Assembly: GCA_945860295.1 (NCBI GenBank)
Contig: CAMAQH010000001.1
Coordinates: forward strand, 124,001 to 188,000
From: Prosthecobacter debontii
GTDB taxonomy: Bacteria > Verrucomicrobiota > Verrucomicrobiia > Verrucomicrobiales > Verrucomicrobiaceae
Length of the DNA: 64,000 bases
Direction: 5' to 3'
Shown here: positions 10,901 to 36,460 of the stretch, piece after piece
Layout: each line of letters begins with the position of its first letter
How positions within the stretch are numbered: position 1 is the first letter of the stretch
Position numbers and translations under genes: made by a program
Notes under the pieces: generated by a model
What the model was told of the DNA's origin: nothing
What the model saw: the letters and a program-made list of their open reading frames with translations, nothing else
Databases searched by the model: none

Positions 10901-13900
10901 TGGTTTGAATATTAGCGCAATTATTGCCAACGGCACGGGCGCTTCGCCTCTTACGGTGAGTGGAACAGGCTTGACTACCCTGTCAGCCATCAACACCTAC
11001 ACCGGGACAACCCATGTCAATGGCGGTGCCAAGCTGGGGATTTCACTCAACACGAACTTGGGTGCTGCCGCCACGGGTGCTGCCGTGACCTTGAACAACG
11101 GCACTCTCCTTGCCACTGCCTCCGTTGCGCTTGAGAACAGCTCCACGACTAACTTTCGCGCGGTCAATCTGGGCGCCAGCGGCGGCACTTTTGAAGTCAC
11201 AGGGGCAAACAGCCTGACGGTTCGTGGTGTCATCAGCGGCGCTGGAAATCTGACCAAGACAGGCACCGGCAACATGCTGTTGTATGGTGCGAACGCGTAT
11301 TCGGGTGGATTCACCAAGGTTCAGAACGGTTCGATTCAGATTGCTTCTACAGGCTCAGTCGCGCCCGCGACCGTTGTCGCATTGGGAAATGGAACGACTT
11401 CGGGCAAACTGATCCTGGGAGACGCTGTCGGTGTAAAGAGTCAGGTCGTCGGTGGACTGATGACCAGTGGAGCCGGCCTGGCAAATGCTGTCGTGGGAGG
11501 GAACGCTGCAAACTCGACACTCACTTACACCGGCACTGTGGGCATTCCGACGATTTATTCCGGCACACTTGGAGGAGCCGGGGCGAATGAAAACAATCTG
11601 GCTCTGAATGTCACCGCAGGCATCCTGAGCTTGAGTGGAAACAACACCTTCACGGGTGGCACGACGATCAATGGTGGTGTCCTCAATATCAACAGTGCCT
11701 CAGCGCTCGGCACAGGGGCGTTGACCGTCACAACCGCTGGCACGATTGATAACACCACTTTGCTGCCGATCACACTGAGCAACAACAACGCGGTGACTCT
11801 GAACAACAACCTTACCTTCGGAGCCACACGGAGCCTGAACATGGGTGCCACCAGTACGACGACCATGGCGGCCAGCCGCACGGTGACCCTGCTTGGGGAC
11901 ACAACGAACACGAACTCTCTGACGCTGGCAAACTTCAATGTGACTGCCGCTGCCCAGACGCTCACCGTCAATCGCGCCCAAGGATCGGGTGTCGCCTTGA
12001 ATATCGGCACCTTGAACCTGAACACAGGCACCGCTGGAACAGCCACGATCATCAGCGGCAACGGCATTGTGAACATCACCAACCAGATCACTGCCGCAGC
12101 GGCGGCGACACCTTTCACCTACAGCGGAACCGGAATGCTTACGATCGCTGGTGCCGCCAACTACGGCGGGCTGACGACATTCAGTGGTGCTGGCACAGTG
12201 AAGCTTGCTGCAGGCGGAAGTCTTCCTGCTGCCTCAGGTTTGACTGTTTCCAGCGGTAGCTTTGATCTAAATGGACAAAGTCAAACGGTGAACGGTGTCT
12301 TAACCCTGTCAGGCCCTGCCGTGATTTCCAATACGAGCGTCACTGCTTCAACTCTTACCGCGACGAATATCGCTGCCAGCACCGGCCACTTGGCAGGAAA
12401 TTTGTCTGGTGCCTTCACCCTGACTGGAGCCGCTGCAGCGATGAGTGGCACTTACACCAATACAGGCAGCTTAACCTTCAGCAATGCTGGTACTGGAGCC
12501 TTCACGGTGAGCGGAAACGTCCTGAATGTCGGTAACGTCACATTCAACGCGAACAACACGAATGCGTTTACGGTGTCAGCTCCCTTAATGAATCCTACAG
12601 GACTCATTACCAACAGCGGTACTGGCACTGGGAGTGTGACCGTCAGCGGAAACATCGGTTCCAATGTGACTGGGCTGGTTCAAAACAGCGCTGGTTCCTC
12701 ACTCCTACTCACTGGCAATAACAGTGCTTTCAGCGGAACAGTCAATGTCAGTGCCGGTCTCCTTCAGGCAAATGAGTTAACCGTGAGTGCGATCACGGCC
12801 ACAAACGGCACGCTGCGTTCGGTCATTAAAACAACGAACCCTAATTTTACGGTCAATGGCACGGGTGGTATTTTCATGAATCCAGGGAGTGTTGTGCCAA
12901 GCTCTTTGAACATCAGTCTGACTGGAGAAGGTGCTGCCTTGCAGCTTGGCAATGGCAACGATCATACGATCCCTTCGTTTGTCTCTAGCGGTAGAACTCA
13001 GCTTCTCTTTGGCGCGGGAGTTGGCAACTCAATGATGAATTTTACAGACACGGGTACGCTGACAATGGATGGCGTTATCAGCATGGGCGGAATTGCCACA
13101 GGGATCGGAAGTGTGGAAAAGAACGGCTACTCAACCTGGGTGCTGTCCGGCGGTAACGCATACAATGGTAACACGACCATCAATGGTGGCTCGGTTCAGA
13201 TCGCTGGCGGAGCCGTCGTCGAAGTGCTACCTGACCGCTCTGCCGTCAGCTTGGCCTCTGGAGCTACATTGGATTTGAACGGCAAGGCCGAAACGATTGG
13301 CTCGCTAGCTGGTCTTGGTGGCGTGTCTCTGGGATCCGGGGTGCTAACCACAGGCCGCAATGCCTCCAGTTCTAGCTTTGGCGGTGTTCTCAGTGGTGGT
13401 GGTTCAGTAACCAAGATCGGTAACGGCACCATGACACTAACGGGCGGCAACACCTTTACCGGGGCACTGACCGTGGCTGGCGGTAGTGTTGTGTTGAACA
13501 CGACGGGTGGTAATACTCTAGCGGATGGCGTAAATGTGGCTCTTACAGGCGGTGGGTTGGTGGTCAATACTTCTGACTCGATCAATCGTCTCACAGCGAC
13601 AAGGAATTCAGTGATCACTTTAGCTTCTGGTGCCACTTTGACCACCAATCATACAGTTGTGGCGACAGATACACGCAGTGCTAAGTCGAGCACCCTGACG
13701 CGTGCCGTGGCAGTTCCTGGTGGAACTCAGGGTCTCATCGTTGGTATGGCTGTTTCTGGCGAGGACACATTTAATCAGGTGCTCCCTGCTGGCACGTTCA
13801 TTGTGCAAATTCTGAATCAAAATCAGGTGCTCCTAAATGCGACACCCCTCCGCTCGGAGACGAGCAATTTGGTCTTCGCTTCCGTTGACAAAGTGGCAGC

Positions 13901-16900
13901 TTTCACTGGGGCTGGTAACTGGACCAAGAACGGTGCTGGCGCGGTGCTCCTTGGCGGTAATAGCGATCTGACTGGGACCGTGACCATCAATGATGGTCTT
14001 CTCATCGCCGGAGGCTTTAGTCAGGGCGGGCGTAACTACATCCAGGACACGATTGGAAACTCCGCTTCCGTGGTGCTTGGTGCATTGGGTGCGCCGACTT
14101 TGAATCTGGCGTCCAATATCGTCAATTTGCTGCCCTATGAGAAGATTGGTAGCCTCTCGGGCGGTAGTTCCACCGCGACGGTTAATATCACGGGTATCAC
14201 CAGCGCAGGAGCGCTCGCTATGGGTGGAAACAACCAGAGCACGGTTTATAACGGCAATATCCGGGGTGGCCTTGGGAGTTGGCTCATCAAGGAGGGTTCA
14301 GGCCAATTCACTTGGAACAACTCCGATGCACAGACTTTTGATGGCGCGGCGCGTGTGGACCAGGGAGAGATGCTGGTGGCTGGTAGCGTGGGATTAAGCC
14401 CCAGCGTGAATGCTGCGCTGAGCAATCAGGCTGGGGCCAAGCTCACTTTAAATACCTCCGATACTGACGGGGAAATACTGAATTCCATTTCTGGTGGCGG
14501 GCATGGAGCAATAGGCGCCTTCCCCAATGGCCTGCGAGGTGCCATTTTGGGAAACTACATCGCTGTTGGCGCTTCTGAAATCCAGATTGGAACCAGCGTC
14601 CTGACGATCGCCAATAGCACGGCTGGATCGGTTTTCTCAATCGGTAGTAATCTGACAGGAACTGGAGCACTCAGAAAGACAGGCAACAACACGTTGGAAA
14701 TCTTGGGTGTGAATTCCAATAGTGGTAACACTGAGGTGAAGAGTGTGGCAGCCGGCACGACCAGCACCATGCGCATCGGTGTTTACAGCGCTAGTTCTGG
14801 AGTGGGCACTCCGACTGCTGGCGGTTTCGGTCAGCTTTCGGCATCTTCCGCTCTCGGGCTGATTTCAAATGATACAGGCCTTAATGGCAACGTCCAGTTT
14901 GATCTCAATGGCTCCACTCAAACAGTCAAAGCTCTCTACACCGGTAACATCAACGGAACGAGGATTCTCAACATGGGCGGAGGCACCATCAACGTCAATA
15001 CGCCCTCGAATTTCTTGAATGGATATTTTGATGGGATCTTGCTTGGTCGTGGGACTATCAACGTGAATGCCACCCATACTCTGGGATGGGAAATTCAGGG
15101 CAGTTCCGCCGCTCCTCCTTCCACGCTCAACAACAACAACAGCCATACAGGCAGCTTCAATGTGAACGGGGGTTTGGTTATCCTAGCTGGTGTGAATGGG
15201 AGCATCGGCGACGTCGTCCACACCAGTGTGGCCTCTGGCGCTACACTGAAGGTCAAGTTTTTAGACACCATCGGTTCCCTCAAGGGTGCCGGTAATCTCG
15301 TGTTCGACGCTTTGAGTCCCACGCTGACCGTCACTTCCGCGCCCCAAGGTTCATTGGCCTCGAGCGTTTGGTCGGGTACTTCCTCTGGACCAGGTAATTT
15401 GACGCTTGCCCGGCGTGCTCGGATGATTATCACTTCAAACCAAGGCTACACTGGCCTAACGACGCTGAAAGACGCCGCCAATCTGACTTTGGACTACTCG
15501 GGTGCGGGAGTGAACAACATCATCCCAGGGGCCTTCCGAATGGCGGGCGGTAGCATTCGCATTCAGGGGGGCACTTCTGCCATCACGGAGTTGGTGGCAT
15601 CGAGCACCCTCGCTTCGGGGGCTACAATCATCTCAGGATCATCCTCGGCAGCCAGACTTGGTCTGGGATCCATGACTCGGCAGCTAGGTGGTATGCTGGA
15701 AGTTCGTGGTGCCAACGTCACGATCGGAAATCCAGAGGAAGTGGGGCTCAATACGCTCGGCGGCTACGCCACTTTTGGTGCCGCCGCAGATATCACTACT
15801 TGGGCGGTTCCTAGAGGCAACAGCCTTACCATTGTAGGTTTGGCGGACTCAGATTACGAAATCGATCTGCCGAATATCAGCAGCACGGTCAATTTTGATG
15901 TGCGCAGTAACTTTCCATTGTCGGACGACGTGGGGTCCTTGCGCTTCAATACAGCACCAGAATCTGGTGAGAGAGTAGTGCTCCTGAGCGGCACAGGAGA
16001 TCCGCGCCGGATTGACTCGGGCGGGTTATTGGTCACGAAAAACATGGGCGCTATCGATGTCAGGCTTACCGATGATGGTGATGCTGATGGTTATAGTGAT
16101 GGGGTTGGCATCACCGGCGGCTCAGGTGAGATCGTGGCGAACGAGCTCATTCTGCACCAGCATAACACTCGTGGCAGTCTCATCATTGATGCTTCGATTA
16201 CCGATGACCCAAATGCGGTATCCAACCCAACTCTGAGCTTTTCTAAAACAGGTCAGGGGCGCGTCATCCTGACCCAGCAGAACACGTATCAGGGACTCAC
16301 CAATATTTTTGCGGGTGTGCTGCAGCTCGGAGATGGTAATAGTGTCTTAGGTAGTCTAGGCACGGGTGGTCAGAGTATAACTAACAATGGCTACTTGGTT
16401 CTCAATCACGGTTCTGGTACGCCGACTGCCATCGGTGATCTTGTTGGGACTGGGGCTGTTCAGGTCATGGGCGGTGCCACAGAAACATTGGGCGGCGCCA
16501 ACAGCAGCTATGCGGGTGCTACTTATGTTCTGAGCGGAAAACTGCGCGCGACTCAGCCACTCTCTCTTGGTTCGACGGATGGTCTCACTTCAGTTGCTCC
16601 ACTAGCAACGCTTGAGATCGGCGGAACAGGTCTGACGTCCTCAGAGTCCATTTTCCTGCGTGGGGGCATACTTTCTGGCATTGATGTCGGAGCTACTCTG
16701 AACGGAACATTATTGCTCGGATCGAACAGTTCCATCAATTCAACGGATGCTGGGACTCAGACCCGTCTGGCTGGACTTGTGATCGTGAGTCCTGGGTCTG
16801 ATTTGACCCTAGGTGGCTCTGGTTTTGTGATTTTCAACAACACAAATAACCAACTCGGCTCGGTGACCTCCACGGCTAATATTCACATTGGTGGTAACCC

Positions 16901-19900
16901 GCTGCTTGCAGCGGCTGTCGGCTCCATTGGGCGTGCTCCGATCAGCACTTCGCGTAAAGTCACGGTTAACGTCAATGATGCGCACTTTGTCTTGGGGTCA
17001 AACATCAGTGGCACAGGTGGTCTGACCTTGAATCGAAGCACCACTTACCTAACGGGCAACAACACCTACACGGGTCCCACGCTGGTTGGTGGGAATGGCT
17101 CCCAGGTGGAAGGAATTTTCGATGGTGCCACTTTGGACGCGAACGCTGAGCTTCGGGTCGCTAATGACACGTACAGTGGAAAGCTTGGTACGGGTAGGGT
17201 GGTGATTCAGTCTTCTACAGGCGGCCAGTCCATCATGCGATTCCATTCATTGGGCAATGAGACGGTGAACAACACCATCAACATCAATCCATGGAACGCC
17301 ACACCTGGCACGGTTAGAAATGCGCTTCTGATCCGTCACGGCCTTGGATCATTGAATCTCTCCGGGGAGATCGTGGCAGGTGACCACAACAGCGCCGGAC
17401 GCGACCCCAAAACGCAGCGCGCTTTCCTGCAAACAGAGACGGGTGGCAAGCTCACGATCAGCGGAAACATTGTGACTGGACCCGGCAAACGGCTCAACTT
17501 CCAACCGGTCAGTAACTCGATTTTCGAATTTGCGGGTAGTGCCAGCAATATCATCTGGGGCCGAATGCTAGGTAATAACAGCGATAACTCGACGGCTAAC
17601 TACATCTTCAATAACACTGGCGAGACGACACTCAAGGAGGCGCAAAACTTCGCGAACACAGGCGGCACCAATCGTTTAAACAACGTTTACATTCAGCGCG
17701 GGACACTTGTGGTGAGCAATGAGGAAGACCCCTCAACCACCACTCAAGCACCGGATGGTGTGAATGATGACATCGACATGTATTTGCTTCGCGGCGCGGC
17801 GATTCGCTTTGATTACAATGAAACGGCTGGCTTTTTTGCCACACAAAAAGGCTCAGACATTCAGGTGCCTTCGGGCGTCACGCTTATCATTGATGACAAT
17901 GCCAACCAAGTCTATAACGGTGGTTTTTCTGGAGATGGCACCGTTCATTTCAATGCTATCGGCGGTGCCGCTTGGCATGGTTTGTTCGGGCCAAGTTCGC
18001 TGTCCGCCAGCCCTATCATTGGCAGCACGAGTCAAGTCACTACCGTCCGTGTTTCAGACTTGGCTATTGCTAGCGGTTTAGATGCGGCCAAGACAATCAA
18101 TCTCGGTATCTCTGGCATTCTTGGTGCGGCCCCTCAGGAAACTCGGCTCGAGTTCGTGAATCGCAGTCTCTCGCTAAATAGCCCCACTCCGCATGTGACG
18201 AATAAGGACATTAATTTGAGCAATAGCAGTGCGTTTGAGAGTAAGCAAACAAGCGCTCCGGCTAGCGGCGGAGGTTCCGAAATCACGCTGGATGATGTGG
18301 GCGGGTTGGTTGATAACATGGCCGTGAGCGGCCCCGGCATCGCTAAGGGCACGCGAATCGCCGCGATCAATACGGGATCAAACACCGTGACCCTGACCTT
18401 GCCGATTGTGGGCGGCACACCTGCGCTGTCCAAGGTGACTTTTGAGGAGGTCACCTTCGCTGGCACGATTCGTATTGGTGCTAATGCCGTCGGTCCGCTG
18501 GTGATCGGCTCAGACTCCAGCAGAACTGCTGCAAACAACTGCAAGATCTCTATTACCAACCAGGGTAATAAGACGCTGATTCTTCACGGGCAGAACACCG
18601 GAGCTAATACGATCAACGGAATGCTCGATCAAAAGGATGCAGTTCTGAGCCTGAGTGTGAACCCGAACGTAGGCAACAACGACCAGTATGGTGCTGGGCG
18701 CTGGGTGCTCACGAATACCAACAACAATTTCAGTGGCAACGTTTCTGTGGGAGTCGGCACACTTGAGCTTTCTGGAAACCTAGGCGTAGGCACTGAAATC
18801 ACGGGCATTTTGGGCAACCTAGCTGCGAATCGAGTTTTCGATTTGGGAACAGCTAACTTTGATGGTCGCCGCTATGACATCTTTGGTAATGGTGACAACC
18901 TTGGCGGTGCTGGCGGAGCTACCTCTAGTGGTTCTCTGGTCTTCAAAGATCCAATCGCGGGCACCCTGACTTTAGGCAGCAACATCACTTTCACCCAGAG
19001 CTTTAACAACGGCACGAATCCAGGGAATGGTGAGATCATCAACGCTGGCACCAAGGTGCTCGTGATCAACGGTGCTTTGGTTGCTAGCGCGTTTAACGCT
19101 ATTTCTGGAGCTTTGGACAGCAGCATCGCAATCGCAGGCGCTCGTAACTGGGTGCTGGACGGCGATAATCTGGGAAACAACACCATTAACGGCAGCATCT
19201 CCAACGGCAACGGCGCTACTGTCGGTGTTAGCAAAGAAGGCGCAGGTAAATGGATACTCAGTAACACGAGTAACAGCATGACCGGAACGGTCACCGTCAG
19301 CCGAGGTTTCCTAGACATGGCCGGCGGCAGCTCAATCGGCGATGACGCAACCGTGAATGTCTCCAACGCAGGCTCTGATGGTAGTTCCGTCGGTGGTGCC
19401 ACCCTTCGCATCCGCACCAGTGAGACCATCGGCGGCCTTGCCGGCTCCATCGGCAGCTTCGCCACACTTGATGCGGGTTTGCTGACCGTCCGAAATGCCG
19501 CCCAGACCTTCTCGGGTGTCATTACTGGTGGCGCTGGCATCACCCGCACGAATAATGACGCTAATGCTCGTGTTTCCACCTTCACCAATAAGAACACCTA
19601 TACAGGCCCAACGACGATCACGACCAATGGCGTCAACTTTGTGGGCAACCGCTTTGACGTCTATCATCTGGCGAACGGAGCCAGCAGCCTTGGAAACGCC
19701 GCCAATGATGCTTCGAATCTGGTCATCAACACCAACACGGGTGCAGGTGGCCTGCGCTATCTGGGCTTTACTGATCAGGCGACGAGCCGCCTTTTCACCA
19801 TGGGGTCGGGGACCAGTGCGGCGAACATTTGGGCGGACGGCACTGTGATCGGAACGATGGCCCCAAAGATCGAATTCACCAATCCTGGTGCCATCGCCTT

Positions 19901-22900
19901 CTCTGGAGCCGCCGACAGCACGCAAACTCTGGTGCTGCGCGGCGCCACGATTGCCAACAACCTGTTTGCCCCGCAGCTCACCAACAATGGCACGGGCGCC
20001 ACCTCTCTTTCCAAGATTGAAGCTGGCATGTGGATCGTCAGCAATCCTGCCAACAGCTTCACCGGCGGCACCAGCATCACGGCCGGCACGCTCGCCATCA
20101 CCAGCGGTACGGCGTTGGGCAGCGGACTCGTCACCATCAATGGTGGTGCGGGCACTGGACTCTTGCTCCGCAATGCTGGCACAGTCGCTAATAACATCAC
20201 TAATTTGACCTCGCAGGGGGCTTTGACAACCGACAGTGGGGTCAATAACGTGACTGGCGGAGTTGCCATAGCCGGAACGAATGCAGACTTCCGTACCGGT
20301 GCCTCTTCTGGAAGCAGTCTGAACTTTGGCGGTGTCATCAGCGGTGCCCTGGGCACAGGTCGTTTTTACGTCGCGGATGGTGGCACCAAGATTTTTAGCG
20401 GTGCTAATACATACACTGGCATCACCTCGGCGATGGGCGGCACCCTCCGCCTTGATTACGGAGCCAGCAACACCTCCAAGCTCCCTGATGCTGCCGCTTT
20501 GGAACTGGGTTGGAGAGACAACGGCATTGTCACTTTACTGGGCGCGGATGCCGATGTGTCGAACCTCAGCTACCAGGCTGGCATGTCCGGTGCCCAATTG
20601 GAGCTGAGCGGTGGCAGTCACGTCGAGATCATGACGGGTCTGACCATCAGTCAGGGGGCTAACAAAATCAGCCGAGTGGGCGGAAGCACTGCCAGTCTTC
20701 AGCTTGGTGCCATTGGCCGTTTGGTGGCTGGAGCGGTGATCGACCAGGGCACTCTTGATTTTGCCGTTGGTGGTCTCGCCTACACAACCACTGCCAATGT
20801 CGGCACTGGCGTGAATGTCATTCATGGTGGTTATGCCACCGTGGGTGGAGCCGGGTGGGCACAGCGCGTTGACAATACCGTTCTGGGCACTGCTGGTGCT
20901 GTAGTTTCGACGGATGTCGGTAATACCATCACCCTTTCAAATATGGCTAATGGATCGAACATCCGCTTCTTGACTGGAGCGCCCGCAGGTCTGACCACAA
21001 ACGTTGATTATTTTGTCGTCGGAGCCACAGCAACAACCTTCCAAGTTTCTGCGACACTTGGCGGTGCGGTCATTGATATTACTGCCAATGGCAACACGGG
21101 GACTGTCATTAGCAATTCGGCTAGCAATACGATCCTAGGCACTGCTGGTGCCGTCGCCTCCGACTCAACCACGGATCGCATCACCATTCCGAATTTGCAG
21201 AACGGGCAGCTTGTGCGCTTCACCTTAAATGCCCCTACTGGGCTGGCCGTAGCCACTGATTATTTTGTGGTGAATGCCACAACGATTGACTTCCAGGTGG
21301 CCACCGCACTTGGCGGCGCGGCCATCAATTTTACCGCTAATGGCATGAATGGAACAGTGGCGAGAACGGGGCAGATCAATGCTGCCCTGGCCAATGCTTA
21401 CAATAACAACACGACTGCGACCACGTTTGGCGCGGGAATTAACACGGATGTTTTAGTTTCTAGCGCACGGGCTGCGGCCACCACTTCTCAGACACTTCGG
21501 TTTAATTCGGCAACGGCAACGGATCTTAGTTTGGCTGGATTTGCTCTTTCACTGGAACAGGGCGGGGTCCTAACCACGCCGGGTTCCGGCGCTGCTAGCA
21601 TCTCAGGCGGCATTATTCAGCGCTCTTTGGGAACGGCTGGTTTGGACACGATCTTCCACACCTATAGCTCGAATGCGCTGACCGTCTCTTCGGTCATCCA
21701 GAACAATACCGCTGCACAGGGAATCACTAAGACAGGCAATGGTCCACTTGTGTTAACGGGTGCCAATGCCTTCACGGGTCGCGTCAGTCTCCAGCAGGGC
21801 ATGATTCAGGTGGGTGATGGCACCGCGGGTTCGGCGGCAGCCCTGCTTTCCGGTCTTGCTGCGCCGATTAGCAGCAGTCTTGGAACGGAATTGAGGTTGA
21901 ACGTGCTGAATGCAGCCACCGCCTACAATCCTGGTGCTTTCACCGGTTCTGGCCTGCTCAATCTCGCCCCGACCAACACGTCAGCGATCATTCTCGACGA
22001 TGACAACGCCAACTGGATCGGAGACTTGACCGTCAGTGGCGGCAGGGTCCGCGCGGCGGCTGCCAACGCCCTCGGCTCGAGTCGCGGCATCACGACGATT
22101 AATAGCACCGGCACTCTTCAAATCGACACCAGCGTCACCATTCCAGAGCTGGTCACCTTCAATCAAGGATCCACACTGACGACTCTGCCGGCGGCGGTGG
22201 CGGTCATGAATGGCAAACAGACTTTTACGAACGCCGGTGCTGGTGGCTTCACCATCAACATTCCTGCACCCGCAGTGGCAGGTGCGCTGGGTCTGAACAT
22301 CAGTGGCATCATTTACGCTGGCAATGGCTTTACCAAAACAGGCAACGGCGTCCTGCAGCTCAGTGCTAGCCAGTTCACCAACGTACTGGATGGGTTCACT
22401 GTCGCCAACACGGGTGCCTCTCTCGTGGGGCAGGTTTTGGTCAATGCTGGTGAGCTACGTGTCGGTAATCCGCGCGCCCTGGGTGCCACGGGCGTCGGCA
22501 ACGAAACCATCGTCGCCTTGGGTGCCACCGTTGATCTGCGCGGTCAGTCGCTCAATTACGGTGATGACTCCTCAGCCATGCGTGAGATCTTTAGCGTCAC
22601 TGGTGCCGGGCTGAATAATACTGGTGCGCTCCGCAATACATCGGGCACAGGGCAGATCTCCCACTTGGTGATGACTGGAAACACCACACTCAGCGGTGGT
22701 GGCTTTGCGAATGCATCACGCCTTGATCTCAGCCCCTTTGACAGCAATCTGAACAATGGCTCCGTGCTCGACGGTAACTTTACCCGCAACAATGCCACTC
22801 TGGCGGGTGGTGGTAATGAATTGACCATCGTGGGCAGTCAGGCAGTTGTGCTGCATCAGCCGACCTTCACGTCAGCTCTCAGTAAGATCAATTTGAAGGA

Positions 22901-25900
22901 AGGCATCCTGCGCCTGGAAATGGATGTCCCAGTCAATGCAAGCAGCCTGTGGACGGGGATCACCCCAGCTAATGTGACAGGTGGCATTGAGATCGCCTAC
23001 GCTGGCCCGACTTTGGCAGATCAGACCACTGCGGCTACTCTTGGCGTGGGTCCGAACGTGGGAGCCAGGCTGAATCTCTTCCGTAACTGGGATACACACC
23101 ACACGGTGAACATCGCCATGAATGGTGTCACGGCTGCTGCATCTGGAGGTTACAACTACATCGACACGGGCACTGACACGATCCCGAATCCGCGCACTTA
23201 TCTCGACGGCACATTGACGCTCAGTGGCGATGCCAGCCGCAACGTCATTCACAATGATGCGTCTGCCTCTGCCAATAGCGTGACGGCTCAGGGTAACTTG
23301 ACGGGTGAAATCGCCACGAAGCTGATCGTGGGTGGCCAGATCACTGGTGCGGGTGGCTTCACCAAGACTGGTTTCCGTGAACTCCGCCTGACCAATAACA
23401 ACACCTTCACGGGTGGTGTGAATGTCCTGCGCTTTGGCACAGCAGCCGTCGGCTGGCAGAGCAACCAGGTGACTGTGAATGGAGTGGTCTATAACACCTT
23501 TGGCGATGCTGAAGGTTGGGCTGAGTATGGCTTGACCCTCGCTGGTAGTAATTCCCGTCTCTCTGGAACCAGTGACGTCACTCTCCAGCGCCGTGGAATG
23601 TTGACGCTGGATAACACCAGCCGCCTTGACCTCACTTCTGCTACTGCCGGTGGTAACAACGATGACCGCATCAACGATGGTGCCAATATCAATTTTGAAC
23701 ATGGTTGGCTACGCATTCAAGGCGGTGGAGCAGCCAATAACGAAAACCTAGCCACAGCGAACAATGCGGTGCTCGCCATCAAGTCCGGAACCAATATCCT
23801 CGACCTCTGGCCTGCGGATGGGCAACTCCAAGCGATGACTCTGACCATCGGTAAAATCTCACGCAATGCTGGAGCGGTCCTGCGCATCAATAACTTGGAT
23901 GCCACCTCCACCTTCGGCAGTGCAGTCCCCACAGGTGCCACCGACAGTGTTCGTGTGGCCCTGACCAGTGCCGTCGGTCTTGATCAGAGTGGTTCTGGCA
24001 CGGGCGTGACGAACCGGGCGATAACCATCGGTATTCTCGGTGGCATCATCCCTCACGGTTACCTCGAAGACATGCGTGAACTTGGCTACAACAACGCCAA
24101 CGTTTCTGATCTCTACAATCAGGGGCGCAATCAGCAGTTCCTTTCCGGCAATCACTTCATGACGCTGGACGGTGGTTTCCTCCGCCCGCTGGATGATTCC
24201 GAGTATTTCACTCCGGCGAACGGAGTCATGGATCCCACAAGCGGTGCCGCTGGGCAGAACGTTAACCTCAACGATACCAGCAGCATCGTCAGGCAGGACA
24301 TGAGCATCAACTCCCTCCGCTTCGGTCCCACGGCAGATAACAACGGCTCAGTCGGCAGCATCAACAACGGCACCACGCTCACGAGCTATAACGCACCTTA
24401 CACACCGACTCTGATTGTGGACGGCACGCTAGGCATCGCCTCAGGCATGATCAGCAGCGCCTTCTTCACGGTGGGTAATAGCACCACGAGTAACAATGCG
24501 AACCCATTTGCTGACACTTTCATCCAGGGTGGCACACTCGACTTTGGTGCCCGAGAGGCGATCATTAACAATCAGAATGGCTTTGTGCGCCTCACGGATG
24601 GTTCCGTGCAGCAGGGGAATCTCCAGATCCGATCCAACATCGCCGGCTCGGGTGGTCTTTTGAAGACTGGGTTCTCACAGGTCGTGCTCGACGGCATGAA
24701 CACTTACTCAGGACTCTCGACCGTGTCGGATGGCAATCTCCTCATCCGCAACGGACGTATGTCGGGTGGTGCAGGTGGCCCCGGCAATGGTTACAAAGTC
24801 GAAGGTAATGGAAACTTGCTCACCAGCAGCGGTATCATCCTTGGTTCGGCTGCTTTTCCTGAGGATATCTTTGTGGGAGTCCTCCAGGGTGACCAGACCG
24901 TCCTCCAAGCTCAGAATGATCTCACCAGTTACTTTGGTGACATCACCGTGGACAATGTCGATGTGGCAGGCCAGACGATCTTCACGCCTCGTGTTAATGC
25001 CAGCGGTGCTAACTCGACACTCATCATCAATGGCGACATTTACGGCGCAAACACCGCCATCAGCAATGATGTGTCGGCCATCGATTCGCGCATTATAACC
25101 ACCAATGGATCGAGCAATGGTCAGATCATCCTTCGTGGCCGTCTTGGGGATAAGGGAGTTGGTGGCGTGGCCACCCCGGTGTCGGGTTCTGTCGCGACTT
25201 TGCAATCGGGTTCTTCCATCACACAGGGAGCCACTCCGGCGGTTGTCACCAATGAGAATGAGGTTCTCCGCTTCCAGATCACTGGGAATAGTGACCTCAA
25301 CTTCACCATGGAGCAGCAGACGGCAGCGGCGGGTCGCTTGCTGCTAGATGCTGGCGTGCTGACCATCAGCTACAACCCTGCGGATCTCGCTAATGAGGGG
25401 ACTGGATTCTGGACGACGACGGCCCTGAGTCGGATCGCCAACAGGGACTCCAATGCCGTTTTCAACAGCACCAATAATGGAAACAATGGTAATGCCACCA
25501 TGCATGGATTCACCATCGGCAGTGGTGGTGGTAACACCGCCCTTTTCTTGGGTCAATCCGGCTCTACAGGCGTCGCTGGTCAGTTCTTCAACATGGCAAG
25601 CTGGCGCGTCTCAGGTGGCAACACCACCTATGTCGGTGGCATTAATGAAACTGGCACAGTCACCTTTGGTGATGGCACCGGCAGTCTCAGTTTGGACAAG
25701 GCCGTGCGCCTTTACTCCATGGGCGGCGGCACAGTGAATCTGAACATGCGCCTGAATGGTAACCAGGCGGTCCAAAAGGTTGGACGGGGCACGGTGGTGC
25801 TTCAAAATACCCTATTAAATAGTGCTAGTGATACGCTTTCCTTTGAGCTCGGCGGCGGCACCATGATCATCGATCATAGCGGACTAAACGGCACCCGTTT

Positions 25901-28900
25901 CGGCACAACTGGAAACTTCACTTTCCGTGGTGGTAGTCTGGTTTCCAGAGGCAGATCGGATGCCGCCTTTACTGCCAGCTATAGCACGGATACCGCTGCG
26001 GTCAGAACCCTGACATTCTCTGCTGGTGGCTCTGAGATCGCGGCGGAAACGATCGCACCCCAGAATCTGACCGTTACGCTCGGAAACACGAGTGGAACCA
26101 ATGGAATTCTAATTCGTAGTGCAGGTGCCACGGCAAACTTCGTGGAGAATCAGTCGGCAGGCGGTGTCGCTGCCATCAATCTAGTGGCAGGTCTCACCTC
26201 GGACTTGGTGAAGACGCAATTGATCCCATGGGCCACCTACGGTGCTCAGCGCGGACGGGCTTCTGACTTTGCGGTCGTGAATGCTGCCAACGGTATTGAT
26301 CCCTACACCCGTGTTGTGGCGGAGTTCCAAAACAATGTGTCTTTGTGGGGTGGCCATCAGGACATCTCGGAAAATGGTGGCGTTGGCTTCTTTGGCACTC
26401 TGGCGGCTAGTCCCGCAGGAGGTCTGGCACCCAATTCACTGCGCTTTGATGCCATGGCGGATAGTCTGGTCAATCTCGGTGGTCAGGTTCTGTCGATCAT
26501 GGGTGCCGAACTCGGTGGAGCCATCTTGGTGTCTTCAAACACGGGTGTTTCAAATAAGACCATCTCGAATGGCTCCATTAATATCTTTAATGCCTCGGTC
26601 CAGACCAATCATAACATCCCTATCACCGCAAGCCTTACAAACGGCCAGAGAACGCTTACCAACGTCTCTTCGACGACACCTCTGATCCCAGGGATGCTCG
26701 TGACAGGGGCTGGAATTCCAGATGGCACCACGGTCGCCACTGTCGCCGGAGCTGCCGTGACGCTTTCCAATCCGGTCACGAGCAGTGGCTCAAATCTCAC
26801 GCTCAGCGTGAGCCTCCACCACGGTGACCTGAATAAAGACAGCTTCGTCATCAGCAACATGCTGACGACGGCGGGCATTGATCCCGGTATGGCGGTGCGT
26901 GGTATTCAGAATGTCACCTCGATCGTGATCACTAACGACGGCACCGGCTACACTTCGCCACCTGCAGTGACCATTACTGGTGGCGGTGGCACGGGAGCCT
27001 CGGCGACGGCTACAGTCGGCGGAGGGATAGTGACCTCCATCACCGTCACCTCATCTGGAACCGGTTTTACCTCCGAACCTACGGTTGCCCTCGTGGGTGG
27101 TGGCGGTTCGGGTGCAGTGGCCAGAGCCGTGGTGCCTGCTGCTTTAGTTCAGGCTGGGGCGACCGCCGCACAAATGACCAGCAATTCGGTTACCCTATCT
27201 TCCAAACCCGCGTTCACCGCAGCGCGAGTGCCGTTGATTTTTGGTAGCACCGCCCCAGACAATTCGGTGGGCTTCAACTTCACGGCCACAGCCGACACCA
27301 CCAATGCTAATCGTGTCCTCACGAATGTGAGTGCGACAGCTGGTATGAGCATTGGCATGCTCATTTCAGGAGCGGGTATTCCTGCCGGCACCACCATTTC
27401 AGCCATCAGCGGCTCGACGGTGACGCTCACCAACAATGCAACTGCAACCGCAACGAGTACCGTCACCATCAACCAGCTTGCTGGGATCACAGACGGAGAT
27501 AATGTCGTGGCTCCTGCCAATCTGACGATCACTGGTATGCAGCGGACCAAGGGTCTTCTACCGGGGATGAATGTGCGAGGCATCCAAAATGTGACCGCTG
27601 TCAAAGTCACCGTAGGCGGCGCGAATTACACTTCGGTTCCATCAGTGTCTATCAGCAGCAGCAATACTGTGGGCAGCGGTGCTGCTGGAACGGCCCTGCT
27701 CGGGGTGAGTCCGGCAAGCTTCACCATCAATGGTGGCACCACGACTTACTCGACCGAGCCTACAGTGAATATCACCGGAGGTGGTGGCGCAGGCGCTACA
27801 GCGACGGCCGTGCTCACTGGCGGCGTTGTTTCAGGCATTACCGTTACCAATCCGGGGAGAGGCTACAGCTCGGCTCCCGCAATCTTCTTTAGCGGCGGTG
27901 TCGAAACGGCCTCCGGCACAAATCCTACGGGCACTGGCAATGCCACTAAGTTCGTGGTTTCCGCTGTGTTCGTGACCGCCTCTGGCAGTGCTTACACGGC
28001 TGAGCCTAACATCGCGTTTAGCGGCGGTGGTGGCTCAGGTGCTACAGCCAGAGTCATTCTGCCTTTCGTGGTTATTCCTGTCGGCACCTTCATTACAGCG
28101 GTGACTCCTACCTCGGTCACACTCTCTGCCAAGCCAACCATCAGTTCCGATCCAGGCGTGCTCATGCCTCTACTCGTCGGGGTGTCTGAACTTCTCGTCC
28201 ATCAATACGGTCAGGGTAATCTGAATGTCGATGTGCCAGTGACAGGTGTTGGTGCGGTAACGATTGCAGGCCCCTCCACCACCAATGCGAGCGAATTCAA
28301 CACCACGGGTACAGTGCGCTTTAATGCCACGAATACTTACACGGGCCGCACTTTCATCAATGGCAGCGTGTTGGAAATCAACTCGGCTTCGGCTCTCGGT
28401 GCTTATCCGGCAGCAGCGACCAATACTCAGCTCACCATAAACGGCGGCACGCTACGCTGGACTGGCGGCGTCTCATCCCTCGGCAATCGTGGCATCACTC
28501 TCCAAGGCAGTGGTGGCGTCATTGAAGTCACAAATCCAGATGGCAATCTGCATGTTGGCACTGGCGTGAATGGCACCCAGGCCCAGATCGTTTCGGAAGA
28601 TGCCTTCCGTGGCGATTTGATCAAGACTGGCGCAGGCACGCTGACTCTCAATGGCTCTGGTACTGGGAGCAATAGCGGCTTCCAGGGGCTGCTAGACATT
28701 CGCCAGGGGTCACTCGCTGTCATGGCAGATGTCGGAGATGCCAATGCGGGCACTCTTTCCATCCTCGGCACGAACCGTTCATGGGCTGATGGCACGATCT
28801 TCCGTCAGGGAACCAATTTCCAAGCTTTCCTAGGTGCCGCAAACAACGCAGGTGTTGATTGGAACATCGAAGAATTCATGACCTTCGAAGGTGGTAACAC

Positions 28901-31900
28901 CTTTACTTACTCGGGTCTGATCGATATCAACGCCAACAACGCCACGGCAAACACTCTCGATACCCAGATCAATCTCGGCAACCGCCGCCCGCTGAACCTC
29001 AACGGTGTGACCAATATCGCGGGCAATACCACCTTTGATGTCGGGTTTGCCAGCAATATCCGCTTCGCACTAAACGCCGGTTATGTCACTGGCGCTGGGG
29101 ACATCATCAAGGATGGCCAGGGTCAGATGGAGTTCCGTGGCAACATCCCAGATTGGAAAGGCAATCTGGCCATCAAGCAGGGCACGGTCTATGCCATCAG
29201 TGCCGCAGACATGCTGGGTAGCGGTTATGCTTCCGGCAAAACCATCACTCTCGGTGATGCCGAGCGCCAAGGCACCGCGCAGCTCCTGATCCAGAATCCT
29301 GATAGCATTCAAAATTGGGCCTTCGAAGTGAAGCACGACATCAGTGTCGTCTATAACCCAACCCAGACCAAGCGCTTGGGCATCGACAACGTCGCCAATG
29401 GCAACAAGATCTCCTATGATGGAAACATCACCCTAAACGACAACTTGATTCTCCTCCTTCAGGACGGTGGCATCTCCAGCGGTGGTGAGCAGGCGATTCT
29501 CAATTTCAACGGCAGATTCAAAGATGGTCTGACCACAAGTGGTAACCTTGTTATCCAGGCCACTGAGGGCGGTGGTGCCAACGACAACGTCAACGGTCGC
29601 ATGACTGGTTATTCAGTCTTCAACGGAGACAATAGCGCTTGGACGGGAGATGTGCACCTCAGCGTCAACACCAGTTACGACCAAGACAAAACCACGGTGC
29701 TTCGCCTTGGCAACAACCTCGCCCTCACGGCGGCGAATGATTTGGTGATGAACTTTAACTCCATCCTCCAAGCGGGTGGGCAGACAGTTTCGATCGGCTC
29801 CCTGACCACTCAGGGTGGGAATGGCTCCTTCAATGGTGATGCAGGGACCATGTCTGCTAGCACGAACGGCAGCACCGAAATCATCGAAAACGCTTCCACG
29901 ACCGCAGGTATCCTGACCATTGCGCAGACCACGCCGGCAACCTTTGAAGCCGCCTGGGATGCCAAATTCCGAGATGGTGTGAGCAATAGCCAGTTCTTCA
30001 ATGTCGGCACAAACACACACCTGGCTTCCGCCTCATTGAGCGTCGTGAAATCCGGCTCAGGCTGGAGCGTAATGACCTTGGACAATGACTACACAGGCAC
30101 CACCACAGTGTCTCAGGGAGTCCTACAAATCGGTCGTGATGGCGTGGGTGACTCAGGTGCCAACAATGCCCTAGGAACCACCGTCAACAGCGGTGCCACA
30201 GTTGCAGGCACTGGCTGGGCGCAAGGTGCTCTCACCGCGGAATCTGGTGCCACCGTCTCTCCTGGGGATGCGGGTGGAAATGCACTGGGAACGCTCAATG
30301 TGAATGGGACCGCGCTCTTTGCTGCTGGCTCCACCGCCCTGCTTCAGGTGCGCATGCCGACTTACAACAATCCCGGTGCCGTGGACACGGGTGACGCAAC
30401 CTATTCAGCCTGGCGCAGCGCCATCGGCACAGATGCCTTTTCCAGCGCGCTCAAAGACCTCGTGACGACATCTCAGCATGACATGATCAATGCCAGCAAC
30501 GCCAGTGTCCTCGGCGGCCAAGGCACGATCAATATCGCGCTCGGTGCTCAGGTCACACTGGTCAATGACGGCTACACCCCCAAGGCTGGTGACATCTTCC
30601 ATCTGTTCAAAGGCACGCTGCTCAGTGCGATCAATACAGGTGCCGGCATCCGCACCGGGCTGGAGGTTAGCACGCTCCTCAACCCCCTTGACCTGAATCT
30701 CTTCGAACTCGGTGGCAATCTCCGTTGGGACACCACACTTCTGAACACACTCGGGGTTCTCCTAGTGGTTACCAGTGAATCTGTCGGCAGCCTGCCACAG
30801 CCGCCCACGATTACGACTGGCCCTACTCGCTCCCCGTCTTCTGGCGTCTTGCCGCCCGGAGCAACTATCACTCTATCCTGCAAGGTGGATTCAACCTCTG
30901 CTGTGCCAATTACAGTCCAATGGCTGCTCAACGATGTGCCGGTGTCCCCATCTCTGATCACATCGAGCACGCTGACGCCAATCAATGCTATTCCTGTTGG
31001 TAGCGGAGTTACCTCCACCATTTCGCTCATTGCCAGCAGCGACACGAAAGGCACCTATAAATTCATCGCTAGTACTGCCGGCGGTCAAGTTGTCAGCGCT
31101 GGAGTCTTGGTGGATGTGAATGACACGCCGCTCATTCCTGCAGGTGATTTCATCGTGGGTGGAACGGGAGGTCAGCCAACCTCGCGTCTTGTGAATCCGA
31201 GCCTGCCAGTTATACCAATTTCCACCACCTTCAGTTCGAGAGTGACAGGTCCCGGACCCTACACCGCACGCTGGTACAAGGTCGTTGCTAGTGTGGAAAC
31301 CCTGGTTTTCACCGAGACAGGCAGCGCCAATGCGCAGAACAAGTTCACCAGCAACTTCACTATCGTTGAAGTCGCAGAAGCGAATCAAGGAGACTACATC
31401 TGCCGCTTCACCACTCCCGGCGGTTCCGCCACCAGCAACATGGCAACTCTGACGGTGCGTGACGCGGTGTCCAATGTGGTGGCCACCCGCACCCGCAATC
31501 CCGACCCCACTTATCTGGGTGAAACGATCATCTTCAGTGTCACGGCTCAAGGTGAGGCTGACCTGCGCTATCAATGGTTCAAGAATGGCGCCGCTTTGGT
31601 GGGCAAGACAACCTCGACACTCAGCGTGACCAACAGCGCCATTCTGGCGGTGCCGGACACTTATTTCGTGAAGGTTACCAATCCCGTCAATGATCCGAAT
31701 TTGGTGAGCTTCACCAATGCAGTCCAAAGTAACGCGGTCTCCCTGTCAGTTCTTGATTCGAAGCCGGTGATTAACAGCACTGTCATGCCGCACCGCACCA
31801 TGCTTGCGGGTGAATCCTTTTCCATGTCAGTCACTGCAAGTGGGCGGCCTGATCTGCGCTATCAATGGAAGCGCAATGCGGTCAACGTGGTCGGTGCCAC

Positions 31901-34016
31901 CGGTTCAACCTTCACTGTCAATCCAGTCACCCTGGCATCGGGTGGCACCTACACTTGTGAAATCTCAAATCCCACCACGACCAAGCTGCTGGCAGGCCCT
32001 GCCGAGATCGTCGTTGTGGACAGCGGAACCACCGTCGTTCCTGTAAAACTTGGTGCTGCTACCACCACCCTCACCGCCAATGTCGGGCGCGGCACGAAGA
32101 CGAGTGTCTTCTACAAGTGGTACAAGCGCGTGATCACACCAGTGGTGGATAGTGATCCTCTGATCACGGATACGGCAGTATCGACGACTGACTCCCGCTT
32201 CACCGGGGAGGAGTCCACCGGCACTGTCACCAGCACACTGAAGATCGCCAACGCGGTCATCGGAGATGACGGCCTCTATATCTGCAAAGTCAAAGGCACC
32301 GATGGTGTCGATGTTGCCGGCTGCTTGCAGGACGTTCGTGTTTATGATGCTGTGCCTATCAATCAAACAGCAATCGCACTCAAGGACGGCATTGTCGGTG
32401 GCTATTACACCGAGCGGATCGTTGTTGATCCCGCGCGTAACCGGTCGCCAGTTTCCTTTGCTGTCGTGGGGACTCTGCCACCCGGACTGACATTGGACAA
32501 GATCACCGGCATTATTAGTGGTCGTCCGACGACCGCCAAGACCTACCCCTTCTCAACAACGGCCACCAACCTCGTCGGTGCAAGTGTGGAGAAGATCACT
32601 TCCACCATCATCATCAAGCCTCTCCCTCTTGGACTCGCAGGAACCTATGCCGGTCCGATTAGCCGCAATGCAGGTTTGAATGGCAATCTCGGTGGCCGCT
32701 TCGACATGACCGTCACGGCGACAGGGTCCGTCAGTGGCAAGGTGACCCTTGGAAGCTCGACTGCACGAACCTTCACGGGCGCAGCATTAGAAATCGACGA
32801 TACAGGTGCCGTGCAGACGAATGCTACGATCAGGATTCCAGCCACAACGACAGTGCCTGCCCTGCCTGCTCTCACTTTGGTCTTCAAGCTCAACAGTACC
32901 GTAGGCGTCGGCACGGCACCTCCTGCCACCGTCCTAGCAGACGCCACGATCAGTGATGGCACGAACATGACCACCTTCAAAGGTTGGCGCAATAACTGGG
33001 CGGCCACCGCAGTCGCTAATGTTTCAGCCAAGGCTGATGCTTATGCTGGCGACTACACCTTTGGCATGATGCTTCCAGGCGGCTCACCACTCATTGGTAA
33101 TTCGCAGGTGCCACAGGGTTCCGGTTTCGGTATCTTCAAAGTGGTCACGGCTGGCAGCTTTACCCTTGCTGGGCGCACGCCAGATGGTGAGACGCTCACG
33201 GGTGCTTATTGGATCGGTCCGAACGGTGAGTTCTTCATCTTCCAGACTCTTTATACAACGGCAATCAAGGGATCGATCCTCGGTGAGTTGCGGATTGAGT
33301 CCAACACGCCAAGCACAGACAACGACATCTTCGGTGACGTTACTCATGTCCGGCCTCCAAACAGCGCTGCTGTTACCGCAACTGTGTCTCGCGCCTACCG
33401 TTCTGGTTTCGGCACCGCAGTGACGGCCACGGGCGTCACACCTACCACGGTGACTCAGCCTGTGTCACTGGTTGCCGTGGGTGGCCGCTACATCGTCCCG
33501 CCGACGACTGGCCCTACCGTGTTTATGGGGCTGACTCCTCGTACCACCGATCCATTGAGTAATGCCGAACTCATCTTCAGTGAAGATGGTGTGTTGCCTG
33601 CCCGCACCAGCGTCTTCCCAGCTTCCTACAACAAAGACATCGTTGCCAATCTCAATCCGAACATCCCTGTGACCATCGATGTTAAAAGCGTTGTGAAAGT
33701 GCCTTTGGCGAAGTCCGCCAGTAACCTCACCAGCACGACGTTCCTGCCAGTGCTCACCACCGGCGCATTCTCCGGTGCCTTCACCCTTAGTGACAGCTTC
33801 GCTCGCCTGCCGCTAGCACCGCTGGTGATTCCCCGGACCGTCGCTTACCTGGGTGCTGTCGTCCGTGAGCGCACCAGCGCTGTGGGCCAGCCGCGCGTCG
33901 TTGAGAACTATGGTATCGGCTACTTCATGATCGACCAGTTGCCACCAAACGTCACCACCCCGGCTACCACCACGCCTCGCCTCTCCGGCAGCGTCATATT
34001 CGTAAAAGCTCCCTGA
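7959..34016 (+). CDS. Giant secreted autotransporter-associated beta-strand repeat protein (8,685 aa)
   Basis: One uninterrupted frame encodes an exported protein of 8,685 residues. Residues 1-39 form a long signal peptide (hydrophobic core [13 protein letters not shown], likely cleavage after LQA). Residues about 40-7,600 are Gly/Thr/Asn/Ser-rich beta-helix-like sequence with at least 25 recognisable autotransporter-associated beta-strand repeats, such as NNTYTG-x-T-x-(I/V)-xx-G-x-L-x(I/V). Embedded modules include a GMxVSGxGIPxGT motif seen four times, GGGGxGAxA repeats, and a 252-base tandem duplication. Residues about 7,614-8,140 hold several Ig-like domains ([19 protein letters not shown]), then a putative-Ig domain ([18 protein letters not shown]). 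Residues 8,225-8,685 are a module shared with the protein at 52620-59024. No classical autotransporter barrel or PEP-CTERM motif is visible. A surface adhesin or sheath role is inferred. It is far larger than usual family members. Confidence 0.9.
20870..21370 (+). repeat. Tandem duplication (about 252-base units) inside the giant gene
   Basis: Two adjacent units of about 84 codons align: each begins with (V/I)LGTAGAV, then a strand, a (R)FxxxAPxGL segment, a DYFVV motif, FQV-x-x-x-LGGA and ANG-x-x-GTV. Unit boundaries are about 20870-21121 and 21122-21370. The units have diverged, so the duplication is not very recent. Confidence 0.7.
26629..28180 (+). repeat. Duplicated composite block inside the giant gene
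   Basis: Two successive blocks (about 26629-27243 and 27283-28180) carry the same order of motifs: LTNVS, then GMLV(T/S)GAGIPxGTT, a VTL strand, PGM-x-VRGIQNVT, and YTSxPxV repeats with GGGGxGA. The second block has an additional YSxxP/YTxxP unit. Two isolated relatives of the GMxVSGxGI motif occur earlier (near 13740 and 18310). Confidence 0.6.
32631..34016 (+). other. Conserved C-terminal module of the giant protein (residues 8,225-8,685)
   Basis: This segment aligns end to end with the last 433 residues of the other giant secreted protein (57723-59024). Shared landmarks in order are LGGRxDxTVTA, GSS, VPQGx[12 protein letters not shown], IFQxLYTT-xx-KGSILG, VRPPN, YRSGFG, GAFSGxFxLSD and GxGYFM. 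It is beta-rich, lacks Cys and ends within about 10 residues of the terminus in both. I do not recognise it as a named domain. Confidence 0.75.
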
Positions 34017-34980: not shown

Positions 34981-35451
34981 ATGATAGGCCGAACCACCTT
35001 ACTTTTACTCACCACCGCAGGCGTCCTGCTTTCGCAGACTGCAGTGCCGCCAGATGGCATGAACGCCTTTGGTAAAATGGTGCCCACCGGCTTCGTCAAT
35101 CGTGGGGTCATCATCCCCTCCTTCAATGCGCAAGGTCGCAAGTCCTCCGAACTACGCGCTGAGACACTCACCCGAATTGATGACGACCGTTTTCAGGCCG
35201 GAAAGGTGAACATCGAAATCTATGCGGCAGAACCGGCGCAAAACATCCAGGTGCAGCTCAGCAGTGCCGTGCATCACATGACCGATCAGGTGCTAAGAAG
35301 CGGAGAGCGCAGTGTGGTTCGGCGCTCAGATTTCGAGACTTCTGGGGATTCACTGGTCTTCGATTCGCGCACCTCCATCGGCTCCATGAAAGGGCGCGTG
35401 CGTACCTTGATCTTTGACCCCCGCGCTCTCTCTGGCAAAACAGACAAGTGA
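34981..35451 (+). CDS. Probable LptC-like LPS export protein
   Basis: This 156-residue protein has an N-terminal hydrophobic segment (TTLLLLTTAGVLLSQTA) suitable as signal or membrane anchor. A beta-strand-rich periplasmic part follows, with strands such as VNIEIYA, VVRRSDFETSGDSLVFD and MKGRVRTLIFD, matching the OstA/LptC-type pattern in which polar and hydrophobic residues alternate. Sequence similarity to E. coli LptC cannot be claimed by eye. The call rests on the fold pattern and on position, between kdsA (one base upstream) and the lptA-like and lptB genes, exactly where lptC sits in other Gram-negatives. LptC would link the inner-membrane LptBFG transporter to LptA. Moderately sure. 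Confidence 0.6.
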   Translation: MIGRTTLLLLTTAGVLLSQTAVPPDGMNAFGKMVPTGFVNRGVIIPSFNAQGRKSSELRAETLTRIDDDRFQAGKVNIEIYAAEPAQNIQVQLSSAVHHMTDQVLRSGERSVVRRSDFETSGDSLVFDSRTSIGSMKGRVRTLIFDPRALSGKTDK

Positions 35452-35471
35452 CCCAACTGACACCTACTGAC

Positions 35472-36455: not shown

Positions 36456-36460
36456 ACCGT

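Follow-up and report, generated by a model that had tools for sequence, protein, structure and literature searches.

Two long proteins sharing a C-terminal module

The window (the whole stretch of DNA analyzed, 64,000 nucleotides) contained two long open reading frames (ORFs), both on the plus strand and both located as an earlier sequence-only reading had claimed: one of 8,685 aa, hereafter the giant (7959..34016), and one of 2,134 aa (52620..59024). All features described below by window positions are on this strand. The giant was composed of a signal-like N-terminus, a PATR-type passenger (PATR repeats, 59.1 bits over the first 1,347 residues), a passenger-end domain (aa 7421-7604; 30219..30770; hmmsearch i-E 6.2e-8 among ten sequences, and alignment), Ig-like domains and a He_PIG domain between passenger and module (30816..32630; Pfam Ig_3, I-set, and He_PIG), and a terminal module of 461 aa that extended to the stop codon (copy 1, 32631..34013; profile E 5.8e-143). 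The 2,134-aa protein carried a signal-like segment, a passenger with NHL repeats (Pfam) and ELWxxDGT-type repeats (named by eye), an Ig-like region homologous to the cassette upstream of the giant's module (56919..57722; BLASTP), and a second terminal module of 433 aa, also up to the stop codon (copy 2, 57723..59021; profile E 1.1e-160). The gene of the giant was followed by an LPS-transport-like pair, an LptA/LptD_N-like protein and an ABC ATPase (35448-37300).

The last 461 residues of the giant and the last 433 residues of the second protein, which had been described as homologous, were aligned by BLASTP over their whole length (194/479 identical positions, 41%; 223 bits, E 2e-72); when the second module was shuffled 200 times, no score exceeded 25.4 bits. 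The motifs [22 protein letters not shown] and RSGFG were identical in both modules, as described. The homology of the shared C-terminus was thereby upheld, but its extent was not, and its start was found further upstream, inside the last Ig-like domains. Residues 7941-8681 of the giant aligned with residues 1434-2131 of the 2,134-aa protein (36%, E 6e-72; BLASTP), so that the shared cassette also includes the He_PIG-like domain and the last of the Ig-like domains and starts near window positions 31779 and 56919, respectively. Upstream of this cassette, no significant similarity was found by BLASTP, in line with the description of the N-terminal parts as unrelated.

Database matches and distribution of the module

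No credible Pfam match and no NCBIfam match were found for the two window modules. With 21 close modules at E ≤ 1, five Pfam families gave one or two weak matches each (best E 0.023), and with 58 diverse modules at E ≤ 0.01, two families gave one weak match each; no CBM or lectin family of Pfam was matched by either set. A match to a named enzyme or carbohydrate-binding family, which would have counted against the sequence-only reading by its own terms, was absent from the libraries searched (Pfam and NCBIfam). Comparison with PDB sequence profiles returned nothing for two of the three module alignments tried (A1 and A2), and the 58-row alignment (A4) returned four nanobody/antibody-domain rows at E 0.05-0.25, which were not credible. 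The second module had no match in plasmid and phage records. Two narrow peptide patterns retrieved 19 loci from named records, all titled Verrucomicrobia, Verrucomicrobiaceae, or Prosthecobacter. Among the best-ranked papers listed, none dealt with the module as judged by titles and abstract openings, which is no proof of absence from print.

The module represents a large family, with tens of copies per genome, that ends many unrelated proteins. The host genome (G000; a 4.68 Mb draft in 75 contigs) had 27 module matches at E ≤ 0.01, not all of them full length. At E ≤ 1e-4 and with all candidates scored, 23, 31, and 29 matches were counted in relatives of the same genus and 45 in one of the same family, and more distant genomes had 2 (same order), 5 (same class), and 18 and 8 (same phylum). 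These counts from the host and eight other genomes are the only ones used here as copy numbers, because the phylum scans scored four candidates per genome. In the phylum sample, the module was detected at E ≤ 1e-6 in 17/387 genomes with a narrow profile and in 39/387 with a broad profile. The 39 module genomes were scattered across several families of the phylum; within the host's own family, five of the seven sampled genomes had the module and two (G066 and G217) had none with the broad profile.

Position in the protein, export signal, and passengers

The position of the module was determined in 118 ORFs matching an 81-row profile that was built mostly from these same proteins. The sample comprised the window and the host-genome loci, 20 regions taken from the 23 matches in G187, a further 20 regions from G101, G201, and G085 together, the 19 named loci, and 19 regions of eight other genomes, these last partly picked for close double copies or partial-looking matches. 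Thirteen ORFs were left out, eight with fewer than 200 model positions and five running off the contig. In 102 of the remaining 105, the module ended within 30 residues of the protein end, and among ORFs complete at both ends it was terminal in 78/81, against 5.46 expected under uniform placement. All three non-terminal modules belonged to cyclophilin proteins, in which they were followed by Ig domains spanning 266, 455, and 487 residues.

Several proteins deviated from a single terminal copy. A host protein of 2,079 aa (L036) contained three modules (residues 69-469, 841-1285, and 1661-2076), the first directly behind the signal-like segment. Two copies were present in another protein (L177), and a protein on host contig 33 had one internal module (L114) and one partial terminal module (L168). 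In G101, two similar proteins of 480 residues (L147:2596-4044 and L148:2747-4189) consisted of little beyond a signal-like segment and the module. As for the proposal of a C-terminal sorting domain, the end position and the unrelated passengers were borne out, but the three cyclophilin proteins and the multi-copy and stand-alone forms spoke against a strict end-of-chain signal. The stretches between the module copies of L036 (L036:3332-9568, host contig 12) looked Calx-beta-like and Ig-like by eye.

A signal-like N-terminus was recognized by a home-made rule in 77 of the 86 N-complete ORFs, a permissive rule that was also passed by 39/86 shuffled N-termini, 8/81 internal stretches, and 182/445 other ORFs of at least 300 residues in any frame. 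On visual inspection of the nine failures, the N-terminus was hydrophobic over some stretch in five (L036, L037, L140, L034, and L176), and the other four looked truncated or wrongly framed. Judged from the sequences, export of the module proteins is likely.

The passengers were surveyed with Pfam in 30 N-terminal parts of up to 950 residues each. They included haloperoxidase-like domains, peptidases (subtilase, astacin, M64, and reprolysin), cyclophilin, FGE-sulfatase, thioredoxin, ice-binding, LRR, RCC1, FG-GAP, DUF5650, SdiA-regulated/LTD, Calx-beta, and Ig types. No glycoside hydrolase family was matched among these 30 parts, and the N-terminal part of L118 had no Pfam match at all. An ice-binding passenger (L150) and an LRR passenger (L152) of G101 were joined to modules that were 52% identical, and an FG-GAP protein (L141, G187) and a DUF5650 protein (L115, host genome) had modules 51% identical. 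Among 106 module pairs of at least 200 bits, the N-termini were related in 45 and unrelated in 61; some of the latter arise artificially, from ORF starts that are truncated or run from stop to stop (L021 and probably L160), and only Pfam-named pairs are therefore given as examples.

Predicted structure and conserved residues

An AlphaFold2 (AF2) model computed from a 21-row module alignment (mean pLDDT 70.8, pTM 0.75) predicted that the module contains two or three tandem small beta-barrels. Unit 1 (module residues 1-130; 32631..33020) was predicted to be an 8-stranded small beta-barrel (VIA-align Z 7-9). Unit 2 (residues 131-288; 33021..33494) was also predicted to be a small beta-barrel by AF2 and VIA-align, with seven strands up to residue 240 and residues 278-286 probably forming the eighth. 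Unit 3 (33495..34013) was all-beta and of uncertain fold, with low confidence at residues 318-367; when modelled alone it was poor (pLDDT 55.7), and its VIA rows, mostly avidins at Z 5-6, were too weak for use. The strands were 6-10 residues long in units 1 and 2, and three strands of unit 3 had 12-17 residues.

A Foldseek search of the PDB yielded nothing below E 0.001; the top rows were photosystem II PsbO (best, E 0.011), streptavidin, fungal lectins, nitrobindins, and lipocalins. Nothing below E 0.001 was found among viral structures either. In VIA, models without a clear match typically reach a best Z of 7-8 according to the tool's note, so that the barrel class of the following rows is credible but their family is not: the best row for unit 1, the opening unit of the module and not its terminal one, was NHBA-C3 (Z 9.2, rmsd 2.9, 99 residues), followed by an amine dehydrogenase domain at Z 9.0; lower rows were numerous C-terminal barrels of fHbp (Z about 8-8.5), hemophilin and TbpB (7.2-7.6), and, at 7.3, the transmembrane domain of OmpA; for unit 2, the rows were designed barrels, streptavidins, and hemophilin (about 7-8.7).

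The repeated 'Y-x-G-x...F-x-G' units that had been proposed found a partial counterpart in the two predicted barrels and the less certain third all-beta part, but not in a significant sequence repeat, since unit-against-unit hhalign comparison gave a probability of 13% or less (with the unit border at residue 276). Unit 2 was the best-conserved part, with the motifs PQGxG, DGE, LYTT, and KGSILG. The conserved columns were mostly glycines, and also D185, P161, Y208, and Y256; a tryptophan at position 239 was conserved as well and is missing from the window giant. These columns would mark the fold, and no active site is evident among them.

PATR giants ending in the module or in PEP-CTERM

PEP-CTERM matches over the cut-off were present in 9/9 module genomes tested, and so was exosortase. 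PEP-CTERM formed the C-terminus of four giants (4,655-5,189 residues), of which G199, G187, G190, and the host genome contributed one each, and both of those scanned (L196 and L199) contained PATR repeats like the window giant. The domain directly before the PEP motif in the four giants aligned with residues 7421-7604 of the window giant, where this passenger-end domain is followed by the Ig spacer and the module, not by PEP-CTERM. When ten module giants were searched with a profile of the passenger-end domain, eight matched with i-E values of at most 1.7e-4; the ten sequences are not all independent, L017 and L200 being close relatives of the window giant. The match was nearly full length in five module giants, partial in three (L028, L041, and L129), and absent in two (L169 and L201). 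Of 112 module ORFs whose end could be read, none had a PEP-CTERM-like tail according to a regular expression that recognized all four tails used as controls. Related passengers hence carry either PEP-CTERM or Ig domains plus the module at their C-terminus. From this alternation, which is the strongest argument for it, we infer a localization role of the module. The four PEP-CTERM giants are L196, L197, L198, and L199, the last being the one of the host (G000:C17:75000-88700).

Search for secretion and processing machinery

The sequence-only reading had suggested examining whether the module is always C-terminal, in signal-peptide proteins, and accompanied by a partner gene. The first two held for most proteins (102/105 terminal and 77/86 signal-like), but the five families tried yielded no secretion or processing gene that goes with the module. 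Exosortase was detected in the host genome and in 34/39 module genomes (counted by eye) vs. 256/348 genomes without the module (Fisher p 0.08). Its presence is uninformative because it is also common in genomes without the module, and exosortase was rejected as a profile partner, 290/387 genomes having it.

Slam (PF04575, E ≤ 1e-5) was found in 0/39 module genomes. It was present in 10/387 genomes, all ten among the 348 without the module (Fisher p 0.61); as Slam genomes are so few, the avoidance does not reach significance and amounts to a lack. The PF04575 search does detect Slam in the phylum, although it found nothing in 14 control genomes and might overlook a strongly diverged reader. Slam, and with it the type XI secretion system (T11SS), was rejected as the reader of the module on its absence from 39/39 module genomes. 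The ten positive genomes included G207 (C32:119683-120534), and one of the PF04575 matches reached E 3.8e-52.

The TbpB_B_D model matched none of 21 modules (E ≤ 1) or 58 modules (E ≤ 0.01) and nothing in the host genome at E ≤ 10, with controls positive only below the cut-off. Por_Secre_tail (PF18962; positive in one Bacteroides control, below the cut-off) was absent from the 21 and 58 modules and from 9/9 genomes, and SprA (PF14349) was found in 0/9 genomes, which is uninformative because the controls were silent. The autotransporter barrel PF03797 was matched neither by the modules (21 and 58) nor in G000 (E ≤ 0.001), G234, G085, and G201. PF03797 matches occurred elsewhere, over the cut-off in G187, G190, G199, and G316 and under it in G101.

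Comparison with known systems

In type IX secretion, a conserved C-terminal domain is found on unrelated passengers, and this is a single domain of about 75-100 residues. The module is likewise a C-terminal domain on unrelated passengers. It differs in that the type IX domain is single and small (75 positions in the Pfam Por_Secre_tail model), and in that this model was unmatched in the modules and the nine genomes. The window giant shares PATR passenger repeats with autotransporters, whereas the module had no match to a translocator barrel, and the host genome had none at E ≤ 0.001.

PEP-CTERM consists of a short PEP motif, a transmembrane helix, and a basic tail, as described by Haft et al. 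(2006, PMC1569441). The PEP-CTERM/exosortase system and the module have in common a C-terminal position, many copies per genome, and diverse signal-peptide proteins. Both also occur in the same nine genomes and at the same junction on PATR giants sharing the passenger-end domain. Unlike the short PEP-CTERM tail, the module is about 350-460 residues long, and none of the 112 readable module ends resembled that tail.

According to PMC8406197 and PMC12282271, cargo of the T11SS combines an N-terminal effector part with an 8-stranded barrel at the C-terminus by which it is targeted for secretion; the main text of these papers holds no word beginning with "Verrucomicrobi". Such cargo (TbpB, fHbp, and hemophilin; also NHBA) resembles the module proteins in its variable N-terminus and would do so in its C-terminal small barrel, which is a prediction for the module, and its barrels were among the best structural neighbours of the predicted module units in VIA. 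The module is unlike it in having more than one predicted barrel, giant or enzyme passengers, no Slam found, and no TbpB_B_D match. In outline, the published type XI cargo plan would be what the module most resembles. Overall, the module would work like PEP-CTERM or like the C-terminal domains of the T11SS and type IX systems, and by the tests applied it appears to be a member of none of them.

Possible role of the module

To our knowledge, little is known about how Verrucomicrobiota place their large surface proteins. We propose, at a probability of about 0.5, that the module is a mobile C-terminal localization cassette of this phylum, placing or holding its passengers, most likely by non-covalent surface binding. 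The proposal builds on the observed homology, copy number, position, passenger diversity, and alternative C-termini, from which we infer localization and retention by binding. The cassette would be made of two or three small beta-barrels in tandem, often preceded by an Ig/He_PIG spacer, at the end of unrelated, probably exported proteins. Once the N-terminal signal had carried such a protein across the inner membrane, its terminal barrels, in folded form, would position the passenger at the envelope or in the matrix of the envelope, or keep it there, most likely through non-covalent binding to a surface component. The module would then act as the counterpart of PEP-CTERM/exosortase for related passengers in the same cell. 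A C-terminal localization domain as such is likely, and an obligatory end-of-chain export signal is partly contradicted.

In an export signal proper, an outer-membrane translocon would read the terminal barrels and drive the passage of the protein through the outer membrane, as Slam and the type IX system do for theirs. The C-terminal position, the diverse passengers, and the plan of T11SS cargo agree with such a signal, as do the nearest folds, several of which are barrels from the C-terminus of hemophilins and surface lipoproteins (NHBA, fHbp, TbpB, and hemophilin). We regard it as doubtful, given the lack of Slam in the module genomes, of TbpB_B_D in the host, and of Por_Secre_tail in the nine genomes, as well as the internal, N-terminal, and multiple module copies. 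Surface retention is favoured over it because multi-copy, stand-alone, and non-terminal forms exist; the first two may suit a binding domain better than a one-shot signal. A related and tentative idea is that of a second Verrucomicrobiota sorting system, interchangeable with PEP-CTERM/exosortase, in which the tandem-barrel C-terminus would be read by a dedicated envelope machine. The binding itself could also be directed outward, with the module acting as a CBM-like ligand- or glycan-binding domain for outside targets (mucilage, or algal or prey polysaccharide) and having no sorting role. Ligand binders do occur among barrels of similar size (the avidin-like VIA rows), some passengers are enzymes or adhesin-like, multi-copy and stand-alone proteins exist, and a general binding domain of this kind would yield much the same pattern. 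We consider it unlikely, as CBM or lectin matches were absent from the Pfam searches, a glycoside hydrolase was found in none of the 30 N-terminal parts, and the near-constant last position and the alternation with PEP-CTERM are not needed for such a domain, although it can be terminal.

Two further readings are less probable again. As a folding or stability cap, the barrels would seal off long beta-rich proteins at their C-terminus and shield it; the module does end PATR giants, and one stand-alone member weakly matched the autochaperone domain PF18883 at a sub-cut-off E of 0.008. This is improbable, however, since enzymes also serve as passengers, the module can stand by itself after a signal-like segment, and other PATR giants lack it and end in PEP-CTERM. 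An integral outer-membrane barrel acting as an autotransporter-like translocator is highly improbable: the C-terminal, beta-rich character, the PATR passenger of the giant, the three long strands of unit 3, and the OmpA row in VIA would suit it, but the predicted strands of units 1 and 2 are short and lie in separate small units, and PF03797 was unmatched in the modules and the host genome.

If the module is indeed a localization cassette, the roughly 20-45 proteins that it marks in several genomes could at once be listed as candidates for the cell surface. A family without credible Pfam or NCBIfam match that occupies the place of PEP-CTERM on other PATR giants would also allow a direct test of holding versus export.

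Divergent module copies

Two copies departed from the intact form. On host contig 6, a module copy on the minus strand (L116:12233-13127) was broken over several frames and had an internal stop, and it looks like a decayed gene. On contig 2 of G234 (L171:1418-7000, minus strand), about 216 residues separated model positions 4-270 from 271-392, as if a domain had been inserted into the module.
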